Part shown: one piece after another, positions 4,879-11,378 of the stretch | Layout: every line of letters begins with the position of its first letter | Numbering within the stretch: position 1 is the stretch's first letter | From: Mariprofundaceae bacterium | GTDB taxonomy: Bacteria > Pseudomonadota > Zetaproteobacteria > Mariprofundales > Mariprofundaceae | NCBI GenBank assembly: GCA_021772895.1 | Contig: JAJFLC010000006.1 | Span: forward strand, 1 to 60,300 | Reading direction: 5' to 3' | DNA: 60,300 bases | Translations under genes and position numbers: made by a program | Notes under the pieces: model-generated | Databases searched by the model: none | What the model was told of the DNA's origin: nothing | What the model saw: the letters and a program-made list of their open reading frames with translations, nothing else

Positions 4879-5775
4879 TTATTTGATTGCAGACAGCAGA
4901 TCAGGATTCTGTACAAGGTTTCTTACACCGTGCGCGTGATCTTCCTTGAAGGTATTGCCTTTGCACCATTTGCCAACAGAGCCGATGTTAACTTTGGCAA
5001 CCTGAGGACGGACACTCCATGATACCTGAAACGGGGAACCTTTCTCATTGTAGCCAGGGCCAGTGGTAGAACCTTCATATTGAACAGCTGTGCCAGTGTT
5101 CTTAGGGATGTTCAGAGCCTGATTCAGGCCATTTACTTTTCCGTGTTTGGTCAGTTTACCGAAGTCCGCAGCATGCTTGTCATTCACCACTACATATACC
5201 TGTGTTTCCACACGCAGCTGAGGGTTGCCAATAGCCTTGCTCAGGCAAGAACCCAGAGTGGGACCTGGATTTACTTGAGCTGTTGAATGTACATAGTGAA
5301 CTTCGATAGTGTCACCTGATGACAGGCCTCCATGTGCACTTGGGCAGATTTCATGTTTTGCCGGCGCCAGTTCTGCTGCACTCAGCTTGCCGTTATATTT
5401 GTAACCGCCCAGGTAACCATGACCATCGCCGTTGCCAGCATAAGTAGTGAATTCACCACCTTTGTGCTCGGCATTTTTATGGAAATGGATGTTGCACAGG
5501 TTCATCTCTGTATATGCAGGTGCTGCATTGAAAGTACGGGCGTTATTGCCGGCTGCAGCATCGATATCTCGAGGTGATTGTGGGCCGAAGCCCGCACCTT
5601 TGGTATTTTTGGCAACTCTTTTGCGCTGATTGGCAATAACTGTATCATTAACTATTATATCATGAACAGTATTCTCAGTTGTTTGGGCATGGTTGTCGTG
5701 ACCTCCGTGGCTGCTGGCGAATGCCGGTGCAGCTAGCAGGCAGGCGACTGCCATTGCGATTGCAATGCGTTTCAT
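4879..5775 (-). CDS. secreted delta-class carbonic anhydrase
   Basis: A 298-residue protein with a signal peptide (cleavage near AFA-SS at residue 21) and a His-rich mature N-terminus. The segment NIHFHKNAEHKGGEF at about residues 94-108 resembles the zinc-histidine region of alpha/delta carbonic anhydrases, and IEVHYVHS at about 157-164 adds more His residues. I recognise it as the delta-like class known from diatoms and from some chemolithoautotrophs such as Hydrogenovibrio. The expected reaction is reversible CO2 hydration in the periplasm. It is a single-gene transcript with a GGGAGA ribosome binding site and its own terminator. Fit with an autotrophic lifestyle is good. Class assignment is by motif and not by alignment. 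Confidence 0.85.
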   Translation of the reverse strand: MKRIAIAMAVACLLAAPAFASSHGGHDNHAQTTENTVHDIIVNDTVIANQRKRVAKNTKGAGFGPQSPRDIDAAAGNNARTFNAAPAYTEMNLCNIHFHKNAEHKGGEFTTYAGNGDGHGYLGGYKYNGKLSAAELAPAKHEICPSAHGGLSSGDTIEVHYVHSTAQVNPGPTLGSCLSKAIGNPQLRVETQVYVVVNDKHAADFGKLTKHGKVNGLNQALNIPKNTGTAVQYEGSTTGPGYNEKGSPFQVSWSVRPQVAKVNIGSVGKWCKGNTFKEDHAHGVRNLVQNPDLLSAIK

Positions 5776-7747: not shown

Positions 7748-8581
7748 TTACGCTAAAAATTCCCTAAGTTTATTCATCGCGCGTTTCTCAAGCTGGCGAA
7801 CCCGCTCGATCGAAACACCCAGCTCTTCGGCAAGAACTTTTAAGGTTGTTGGCTCTTCACAAAGATGGCGTTGTTTTACAATATGACGGTCACGATCTGT
7901 CAATTCTCTCAGCGCTGTATAAAGCCGGGTCTGCTGATGATCCTGCCAGTTGGACTCCAGAACGTTTTCTTCAGGCGTTGCTTCTGATGCAGGCAGTGCA
8001 GTCACCAGCGTTTGGCCTTCCACATCGGCATCAAGCGAAACATCGCGCTGCAAATATGCATTTGCTGTCTCCTGATACTCGTGTGAGGTGATACCATACT
8101 CAGCCGCAACTTCATCAGCACTGTGTCCATCCAGCGCAGCAATTGCATTTTTAGCTTTCTGCAAACCTGCAAAAACCTTGCGCTGAAGCTTGTTGGTACC
8201 AAGCTTTACAATGCTCCATGAATGCAAAATAAAATCATGAATCGCTGCGCGAACCCACCATGAAGCGTAAGTCATTAAACGAAAACCACGATCGGGATCA
8301 AAACGTTTGACCGCATGCATCAAGCCCAATGTGCCTTCCTGAATCAAATCAGCTTCCGGCAAGCCAAAATGACGATATTCACGCGCAATCGCTGCCACGC
8401 CATACAAATTTGTAACCACCAGTTGCTGCGCAGCCTCACGATCCTGTTGATCGTGCCATCTACGTGCCAACGCAACTTCTTCTTCACGGCTTAAACGCTC
8501 AACACGTTTAACATCCCGATAAAAAAGAGAAAGACTCGACATATCTGCAACAGCAATATCCAAATTAACACTCCACACCAT
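7748..8581 (-). CDS. rpoH: RNA polymerase heat-shock sigma factor RpoH (sigma-32)
   Basis: Sigma-70-family factor with region 2 (DLIQEGTLGLMHAVKRFDP; YASWWVRAAI) and region 4 (ELGVSIERVRQLEKRAM). The RpoH-box-like stretch between regions 2 and 3 and its place behind ftsEX, as in E. coli, mark it as RpoH. I chose the ATG at 8581, which gives an N-terminus about as long as E. coli RpoH. A longer frame from 8593 would start inside the CIRCE operator, and an ATG at 8542 is a fallback. A sigma-70 promoter and a perfect CIRCE element lie directly upstream, so HrcA probably represses it. Confidence 0.95.
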   Translation of the reverse strand: MVWSVNLDIAVADMSSLSLFYRDVKRVERLSREEEVALARRWHDQQDREAAQQLVVTNLYGVAAIAREYRHFGLPEADLIQEGTLGLMHAVKRFDPDRGFRLMTYASWWVRAAIHDFILHSWSIVKLGTNKLQRKVFAGLQKAKNAIAALDGHSADEVAAEYGITSHEYQETANAYLQRDVSLDADVEGQTLVTALPASEATPEENVLESNWQDHQQTRLYTALRELTDRDRHIVKQRHLCEEPTTLKVLAEELGVSIERVRQLEKRAMNKLREFLA

Positions 8582-8586
8582 CGTTA

Positions 8587-8613
8587 TTAGCACTCTAATT
8601 ATAGGAGTGCTAA
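8587..8613 (-). promoter_or_regulatory. CIRCE operator (HrcA site) of rpoH
   Basis: TTAGCACTC, nine bases, then GAGTGCTAA: an exact match to the CIRCE consensus bound by the heat-shock repressor HrcA. The nine-base spacer contains the TATAAT -10 box of the rpoH promoter read on the minus strand, so repressor binding would block RNA polymerase directly. Confidence 0.95.
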
Positions 8614-8625
8614 TGTTTAAGTCAA
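8598..8625 (-). promoter_or_regulatory. sigma-70-type promoter of rpoH
   Basis: On the minus strand TTGACT (8625-8620) and TATAAT (8603-8598) are separated by 16 bases, close to the vegetative consensus. Transcription would start near 8591, leaving a very short leader before the ATG at 8581 or about 50 bases before the ATG at 8542. The -10 box lies inside the CIRCE element. Confidence 0.8.
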
Positions 8626-8656: not shown

Positions 8657-9547
8657 CTACGAATCGACGCTATCCGGTGAAATAAGTTTAGCCGTTGCAA
8701 TCATGGCACCAAGACAACCCACCAGCACACCACCAAACAAAAGCGGCAATAAAAGCGTAAACGGGCTTAACGCGATGCCCAGGCTACCTGCCCAACTTGA
8801 TACGCCCAGCACCAACGGCCATAAAAGTAACCAGCCCAGCAATGCTGCACCACCGCCCAATAAAGTTCCTTCCATAATAAACGGCATGCGTACAAACCAC
8901 TCTTTTGCGCCCAGAAGCCGCATCAAATGTACCTCATCGGCACGGGCCAGAAGAATCATCCGTAATGTATTGGATACAATCATCGCCATTGCTAACGCCA
9001 GGATCACACTGACAAACAAAACAAGCTGGCGAATGGATTGCAACAACTCATGAGCATTGGCTAACTGTATCTCATCCTCATTCACCGAAGCCCCAAAACG
9101 GGCAGCTTCATCTCGAATATCCGAAAAAATAAAATCATTTCGCTCGTCTGCCAGTGTTAATTCTAAACTCTCTGGCAGCTGGCTTGAGAACTTATCGACA
9201 TCCAGCGAGGTATCACCCAGCCAGTTCTGCATCCAAAGGGCAGCCTCTTTCCGATTGATGTATCGGACTGAATCCACGCCTTCGATTGTAGACAGCCTGC
9301 CTTTTAAATCACCAAGCTGGTCTTTTTTTTCGACAGGCAAATAAACGTGTAATTGAAGATTTCCCTGCCATGAGCCCACCCATTGCTGAGCACCCTGCAA
9401 ACCAAGCCAGACAGCACCAAGCGCCCACAAAGCAACACAAACAATCATCAAGGCAAGAAACTGATGAATACCAAAAGGCGGGAGCTGAAAACCTCCCGGT
9501 AAACGCAACTCAATGCGTTCAGGTACATGATTAATTCTGTCACTCAT
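8657..9547 (-). CDS. ftsX: cell division protein FtsX
   Basis: A 296-residue inner-membrane protein with the FtsX layout: a short cytoplasmic N-terminus, one membrane segment near residues 29-50 (FLALMIVCVALWALGAVW), a periplasmic domain, and three C-terminal membrane segments from about residue 172. With FtsE it couples ATP hydrolysis to activation of septal peptidoglycan hydrolases. It overlaps the end of ftsE by 8 bases. rpoH follows after a 75-base gap that contains its own promoter. Confidence 0.95.
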   Translation of the reverse strand: MSDRINHVPERIELRLPGGFQLPPFGIHQFLALMIVCVALWALGAVWLGLQGAQQWVGSWQGNLQLHVYLPVEKKDQLGDLKGRLSTIEGVDSVRYINRKEAALWMQNWLGDTSLDVDKFSSQLPESLELTLADERNDFIFSDIRDEAARFGASVNEDEIQLANAHELLQSIRQLVLFVSVILALAMAMIVSNTLRMILLARADEVHLMRLLGAKEWFVRMPFIMEGTLLGGGAALLGWLLLWPLVLGVSSWAGSLGIALSPFTLLLPLLFGGVLVGCLGAMIATAKLISPDSVDS

Positions 9548-10238
9548 ATGAATCCCCTACCAATGAGCCCTGATGCAATTGAACCACACGGCCGGGATGT
9601 GAAGTAAGCAAATGCAGATCATGTGTTGCCATGATGACCGTTGTACCACTTTGATTTAAAGACATTAGCAGATCCAAAACCTTGCGCGCAGTCTCTTCAT
9701 CCAGATTTCCTGTGGGTTCATCGGCTAAAATTATTGGCGGGTTTGTTACCATCGCCCGAGCAATCGCAATGCGCTGCTGTTCACCACCGGAAAGTGCTTC
9801 CGGATATGACCACAAACGATCATCAAGACCAACAAAGCCCAGCACTTTTCGCACACGGGGCACCAGACGTTCTTTATCCCAACCCTGAACGCGAAGTGGC
9901 AGTGCTACATTTTCAAATACAGTGCGTGAAAAAAGCAACTTATGATCTTGAAAGATAATGCCTGTACGCTGACGCAGTTCCCGCACATCACTTTCGGAAA
10001 CACTGCGCATGTCCCACTGCTGCACACCCATTTGCCCGGATGATGGTTTCAAACCACCATAAAACATGCGTAAAAGCGTTGATTTTCCTGCCCCGCTCTC
10101 GCCAGTCAAATAAACGAAGCTTCCTTGCGAAATGGCTAGCGAAACCCCGGACAAAGCAACCTTTCCTGTTGGATAACGAAGCATCAATTGCTGCATTGTG
10201 ATAATGGGCTTGGAAACTGTATTTTGATCATTCGACAT
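9540..10238 (-). CDS. ftsE: cell division ATP-binding protein FtsE
   Basis: ABC-type ATPase partner of FtsX. Walker A is GESGAGKST, the signature is [14 protein letters not shown], and Walker B is ILADEPTG. The frame is open further upstream to 10493, but the ATG at 10238 (MSNDQNT) is chosen because it gives the usual length of about 232 residues and because the extra 85 residues have no family match and would run across the divergent gene. It is the first gene of ftsE-ftsX-(rpoH). Confidence 0.95.
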
Positions 10239-10316
10239 CGGAATACAGTAGCGGTGCAAAAGCACCCTGTCAGCATTCCTGCTGACAAACCATAAATTTG
10301 ACTTCAGCATTGGCCC

Positions 10317-11378
10317 ATGCATATCTCCTGTCCACACTGCGATGCTGCTTATGAAGTTGGCCCACTGATCAAAAATGCTATTTTGGTGTGCCATCGCTGC
10401 CACACCGAATTCAATATCGATGATGCGCACTCCAAACAACAAAGTGCTGCTGAGACCGACAGTATGGAAATGCCGCTTCCACTGTTTGAACATACCGGCA
10501 CCCGGAAGAAAGATGGCGAAAAAAAAGGTGAACGGTCATCCAAACAAGCTTCAAAAAAGATCAAAAAAGATGAGCATCACACGCACGCCTCTAAGAGTCC
10601 TATCCCTGTGTTTCTTGAGAAAGATCAATACACAGACATATCTCAAGATAAAAAAATGTCTGCCAAGCCTGACCTGGCAAACGCGAATAATAATGCCCAT
10701 TCAGTAGATTCAGTAGAAACAACCGAAACTGATAACATTGAGCAACATGATCCAAAAGCCGCATTCAAGGCGTCGGAAGAGAATACCAGGCATAAAACTG
10801 CAAAAGAGGCTGATACAAAAGTATCTCCCAAAGAGCTGGAGAAAGTATTTCCACCAGCCAGAAAAAATGTCGTCATCTGGCCATGGCTTATTGTGATACT
10901 GCTGACGATCAGTGGTGCCGGTTTTTGGTACAAACAGGATGTATGGCTTGATCACCCCTGGTTACGAAGTGTGCTGATTAATATGCATCTGCCGGTGGAA
11001 GTCCGTGATAAAGACTGGCTTATTATTCCGGGAAGTGTGCAGGGGCACTGGCTCAAACGAGATGATGGAAGTCAGGTCTTTACCATACAGGGCCGTATTG
11101 AAAATCGCCTCTATTGCGAACTTCCGCCCCCTCAGATTCTGATACAGTTCTTTGACAATACAGGTCTTACTGAAAGCCTTGAAGAGAAAATATTTTCCAT
11201 TACCGAACCGCCTTCAATGGCGCAGATCAAACATGCACCCTTTGTGATTCCGAAACCTGATCTGCTCCCCATTGAGGCTCAGGGGCAACGCGGTTTCTTT
11301 TTAGTGCTGGAGTCACTGCCGGAACGAACAGCTGATTTTACACTCACGCCATCTGTAAAGACATCAGCAAATAAATAA
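10317..11378 (+). CDS. zinc-ribbon / DUF3426 membrane protein
   Basis: A 353-residue protein. It begins with a CxxC...CxxC zinc ribbon of the MJ0042 type (CPHCDAAYEV ... LVCHRCHTEF, Cys5, 8, 24, 27). A long polar and Lys-rich linker follows to about 180, then one membrane segment (VIWPWLIVILLTISGAGFWY), then a C-terminal DUF3426 domain with FTIQGRIENR and a ...GFFLVLESLP end. Such proteins are common in proteobacteria and their function is not known. It is divergent from ftsE and convergent with the next gene. Confidence 0.85.
   Translation: MHISCPHCDAAYEVGPLIKNAILVCHRCHTEFNIDDAHSKQQSAAETDSMEMPLPLFEHTGTRKKDGEKKGERSSKQASKKIKKDEHHTHASKSPIPVFLEKDQYTDISQDKKMSAKPDLANANNNAHSVDSVETTETDNIEQHDPKAAFKASEENTRHKTAKEADTKVSPKELEKVFPPARKNVVIWPWLIVILLTISGAGFWYKQDVWLDHPWLRSVLINMHLPVEVRDKDWLIIPGSVQGHWLKRDDGSQVFTIQGRIENRLYCELPPPQILIQFFDNTGLTESLEEKIFSITEPPSMAQIKHAPFVIPKPDLLPIEAQGQRGFFLVLESLPERTADFTLTPSVKTSANK

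Follow-up and report, generated by a model that had tools for sequence, protein, structure and literature searches.

A perfect CIRCE operator overlies the predicted promoter of rpoH, the gene for a sigma-32 type sigma factor, in the window, the 60,300 nt stretch of a Mariprofundaceae contig analysed here. The best explanation of this arrangement, and in our judgement a very probable one, is that the site is a functional operator at which HrcA would repress rpoH by promoter occlusion.

The predicted HrcA binding site occupies positions 8587–8613 (minus strand), where the window reads TTAGCACTCTAATTATAGGAGTGCTAA. This 27-bp palindrome matches the CIRCE inverted repeat TTAGCACTC-N9-GAGTGCTAA with no mismatch, so the exact 9-base arms described in the original prediction are indeed present. 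It is the sole match in the window even with three mismatches allowed, a level at which shuffled sequences yield 0.01 matches, and a perfect CIRCE is expected about 9e-7 times by chance in 60 kb. The spacer between the arms, CTATAATTA on the minus strand, contains the −10 box TATAAT (8603–8598). The −35 box TTGACT (8625–8620) is located 16 nt from the −10 box. Both boxes, placed as had been proposed, are read on the minus strand before rpoH. The boxes match at 11 of 12 positions, and in this AT-rich stretch one such match was found with 1.0 expected in shuffles. Taken alone, the promoter-box match is not beyond chance. Its weight comes from the position of the boxes and from their conservation in a sister species of the same genus (G076), where TTGACA and TATAAT are both kept at a spacing of 17 nt and the operator overlies them. 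TATAAT is also found within the CIRCE spacer of a further genome (G041). The rpoH transcript is predicted to start near 8591, approximately 7 nt past the −10 box.

The rpoH gene spans positions 7748–8563 of the minus strand. Its product scores 285 bits against NF005143 (PRK06596, sigma-32 subfamily), above the cut-off of 241, and 283.6 bits against TIGR02392 (rpoH_proteo), below the equivalog cut-off of 323.1. No other sigma factor of the genome is a comparable RpoH candidate (283.8 bits; the next one reaches 143.7). In the tree it groups with RpoH of beta-, gamma- and deltaproteobacteria (100/100), apart from the two other large sigma factors of the genome. Since the TIGR02392 cut-off is missed, yet score gap and tree placement favour RpoH, the protein is classified from its sequence as a divergent zetaproteobacterial RpoH-type sigma factor and not as a strict equivalog. 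Directly upstream of rpoH lies ftsX (8657–9547, minus strand; TIGR00439 FtsX, E = 5e-41, below the equivalog cut-off), which is preceded by an ftsE frame (9540–10493) with an ABC_tran domain. Elsewhere on the minus strand, the window contains a gene for a delta-class carbonic anhydrase (4879–5775; PF10563, E = 1e-82), a protein whose beginning resembles a signal peptide.

The operator also bears on the choice of the start codon, in agreement with the original prediction. The longest rpoH frame starts with GTG 8593 within the operator arm closer to the gene. This codon cannot head the gene, because the −10 box at 8603–8598 places the transcript start near 8591 and GTG 8593 would lie at or before it. 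Furthermore, the rpoH frame of the sister species has a stop codon between operator and gene, 36 nt upstream of the conserved MSSL. An NTG codon is found 21 nt before the conserved M(S/T/N)SL in 16 of the 17 CIRCE-bearing zetaproteobacterial rpoH genes (the window's included), usually just after GGAG(G). Because of this NTG in the relatives and the closed frame of the sister species, the start of rpoH is likely TTG 8563 and not ATG 8542, the methionine codon of MSSL. The probable Shine-Dalgarno sequence is GGAG at 8574–8571 (minus strand); GGAG(G) is likewise placed before NTG in most relatives.

The original prediction depended on the presence of the repressor, and one hrcA gene was indeed found in the genome (PF01628, E = 3.5e-54; G000:C19:117631-118284). 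Its product matches the solved HrcA structure 1STZ over residues 1–323. The scan for other CIRCE sites, which had also been proposed, identified sites before groESL and before hrcA-grpE-dnaK. The former is a perfect CIRCE 5' of groES (G000:C4:146949), and the latter is a degenerate copy with three mismatches upstream of the cluster that contains hrcA itself. A fourth CIRCE with one mismatch is located at G000:C16:36236-36262 (L036 6237-6263), about 270 nt upstream of a small DUF2188 gene on the minus strand (start near L036 5964). This gene is outside the usual HrcA targets.

The arrangement was compared across 78 zetaproteobacterial genomes. hrcA is present in 26 of them. CIRCE with up to two mismatches occurs in 23 genomes, all of which are hrcA-positive. 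Among the rpoH genes of hrcA-positive genomes, 17 of 26 carry a CIRCE with 0–3 mismatches 42–103 nt upstream of the conserved start region, whereas none of the 50 readable rpoH loci of hrcA-negative genomes has one, even at five mismatches (shuffled 300-bp regions typically give 7–9). A Fisher test on these loci, which ignores phylogeny, gives p ~1e-10. The operator is kept before rpoH genes whose proteins are only 57–87% identical to that of the window. The predicted hierarchy with HrcA above RpoH, as originally put forward, fits the anatomy of the locus, and the presence of the putative operator at rpoH tracks hrcA across the class.

This link is not obligatory, because the main rpoH is without CIRCE in six of the hrcA-positive genomes: L050, L052, L053 and L055 of genus g7 and L019 and L027 of genus g12. 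On this sequence comparison, they seem to be natural cases of rpoH outside HrcA control. Additionally, several genomes of genus g12 (L068, L077, L079 and others) have a second rpoH copy, about 57–60% identical to that of the window, and these copies never carry a CIRCE. On the RpoH tree the presence of CIRCE is patchy. This pattern fits an old site that would have been lost several times along with hrcA, but is no proof of it. It was also considered whether a CIRCE-rpoH cassette had been acquired laterally from Geobacter-like bacteria. Transfer of the gene is unsupported, since RpoH of the Zetaproteobacteria is a single clade (100/100), separate from the Desulfuromonadales type.

The wiring is not restricted to the Zetaproteobacteria. 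About 85,000 species genomes were scanned for the CIRCE core followed by the RpoH motif QEGxxGLM at the right distance. At least 119 CIRCE-rpoH stretches were found, a count of matches that gives no fraction of rpoH genes with CIRCE. Eighty of these were analysed as loci (L087-L166). The translation of each of the 80 can be aligned to E. coli RpoH, with 36–69% identity; in L111 and L138 the translated RpoH breaks off early. Among the matches listed, most belong to beta- and gammaproteobacteria, some to Geobacteraceae and Desulfuromonadales, and one to a zetaproteobacterium. By our own estimate, chance alone would give about 0.1 such cases across the rpoH promoters of all Proteobacteria. hrcA is present in all 24 further CIRCE-rpoH genomes tested. 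Judged from these sequences, CIRCE-at-rpoH wiring is widespread in Proteobacteria.

In the beta- and gammaproteobacterial loci, CIRCE is located 4–42 nt before the first possible start codon, and hrcA is present where tested, but the promoter under the operator differs from that of the window. It is often sigma-E-like instead of TTGACA/TATAAT. In about half of the 80 loci GGAACTT precedes the operator, most often 16 nt before the first base of the operator (e.g. L089, L106 and L139). The second promoter half, TCTnA, consists of the operator's own CTC and the first bases of the spacer, its TC being supplied by the CIRCE arm. The gap between GGAACTT and TCTnA is 16 nt in 22 of 35 measurable loci. 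With a strict definition of the motif, GRAACY is properly placed in 41 of 80 loci, compared with 1.2 (largest value 5) in shuffles. Since the scan pattern did not include this motif, its recovery owes nothing to the way in which the loci were selected. GGAACTT/TCTnA agrees with the established consensus of sigma-E promoters, among them P3 of E. coli rpoH. As read from the sequences, the operator is interlaced with a sigma-70 promoter in the window and often with a sigma-E-like promoter in beta- and gammaproteobacteria. The predicted repressing input (HrcA) is constant and the putative activating sigma factor differs between lineages. No report of a sigma-E/CIRCE composite was found in the literature searched; Permina and Gelfand (2003), the likeliest source for the beta- and gammaproteobacterial cases, lies outside that search, and no priority is claimed for the composite.

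The proposed mechanism combines computed elements (the site, the promoter match, the gene identity, the presence of hrcA, the conservation, and the lack of the site in genomes without hrcA) with binding, occlusion, GroEL sensing and a kinetic hierarchy taken over from established HrcA/CIRCE biology. In the unstressed cell, a GroEL-activated HrcA dimer would occupy the 27-bp palindrome. With the −10 box and the transcript start covered by the bound repressor, the rpoH promoter would be closed to RNA polymerase that carries the housekeeping sigma factor. Upon heat shock, unfolded proteins would draw off GroEL and HrcA would lose its activity. groESL, hrcA-grpE-dnaK and rpoH would then be derepressed together, and newly made RpoH would transcribe the remaining heat-shock genes. 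Restored GroEL would reactivate HrcA and shut off the cascade. A genome-wide search with a strict sigma-32 promoter consensus gave one match, equal to the control.

Other explanations differ in how much of the control of rpoH they leave to HrcA. CIRCE could only tune the gene, if ftsEX read-through or a promoter that escaped recognition supplied most of the transcript; HrcA would then be a damper and would not head a hierarchy. The end of ftsX and the operator are only about 43 nt apart and no terminator-like site was found between ftsX and rpoH, so some HrcA-independent read-through is possible and the effect of HrcA on rpoH may be tuning more than switching. The related species that keep hrcA without CIRCE at rpoH point in the same direction. 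On the other hand, the operator lies exactly over a near-consensus promoter, an overlap that the sister species has kept, and transcription arriving from upstream could itself be blocked by bound HrcA. On balance, we consider a role limited to tuning rather unlikely.

Still less probable is that rpoH is controlled mainly after transcription, e.g. by an RNA thermometer in its leader, with CIRCE in a secondary role. It is established that E. coli rpoH is controlled mainly at the level of translation, but the leader predicted here is short, with about 28 nt ahead of TTG 8563. The predicted fold of the first 122 nt is not better than that of shuffled sequences (z = −0.24), and none of the Rfam families attains its gathering score in this region. 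An RNA thermometer in the rpoH leader was rejected on these grounds. There is hardly any room for the palindrome being a chance resemblance or the site of another protein. No supporting point was found for this explanation, and against it stand a chance expectation of ~1e-6, the conservation of the site in place and its absence where hrcA is absent. Occlusion of the rpoH promoter by HrcA is thus the explanation we retain.

Parts of this arrangement are known from other bacteria. B. subtilis HrcA is a repressor tuned by GroEL. The B. subtilis regulon (groESL, hrcA-grpE-dnaK-dnaJ) has the same operator and the same repressor family as the window. B. subtilis is not known to have a sigma-32, and HrcA acts directly on the chaperone operons with no sigma-factor layer below it. 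The window resembles the E. coli ftsYEX-rpoH locus in having ftsE, ftsX and rpoH in this order and in encoding an RpoH-type sigma factor, but E. coli is without hrcA (it is not among the control genomes that match hrcA). Its rpoH gene has several promoters, one of which is sigma-E dependent, and an RNA thermometer.

The closest precedent is Geobacter sulfurreducens, for which a perfect TTAGCACTC-N9-GAGTGCTAA was computationally predicted at position −51 of rpoH (Rodionov et al. 2004; PMC545781, Table 8). CIRCE sites were also described before groESL and hrcA-grpE-dnaK-dnaJ (PMC545781). The genome of the window shares these three CIRCE targets (groESL, hrcA-grpE-dnaK and rpoH). G. sulfurreducens, however, belongs to a different phylum, and the CIRCE-rpoH loci of the Desulfuromonadales group are on a separate branch of the RpoH tree. 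This was the only direct precedent for HrcA/CIRCE at rpoH in the literature searched. Together with the cases from the scan, it makes the arrangement less singular than the original prediction implied. CIRCE before rpoH has been on record as a prediction for one species since 2004; the co-occurrence with hrcA across the class, the breadth in beta- and gammaproteobacteria and the sigma-E composite go beyond it.

The comparison leaves an evenly balanced case for a broader evolutionary reading. HrcA control of rpoH would be a common and probably old proteobacterial layer that is often kept together with hrcA, and the activating input would have been exchanged (sigma-E in many beta- and gammaproteobacteria, the housekeeping sigma factor in Zetaproteobacteria). 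The HrcA-less state of E. coli would then be derived.

Activation by sigma-32 and repression by HrcA are usually presented as parallel systems of the heat-shock response in Proteobacteria. CIRCE over rpoH, in the 17 zetaproteobacterial genes and in the at least 119 stretches of the scan, would place the two systems in series in many lineages. Accordingly, the sigma-32 regulon of many non-enteric species is predicted to be induced when hrcA is deleted.
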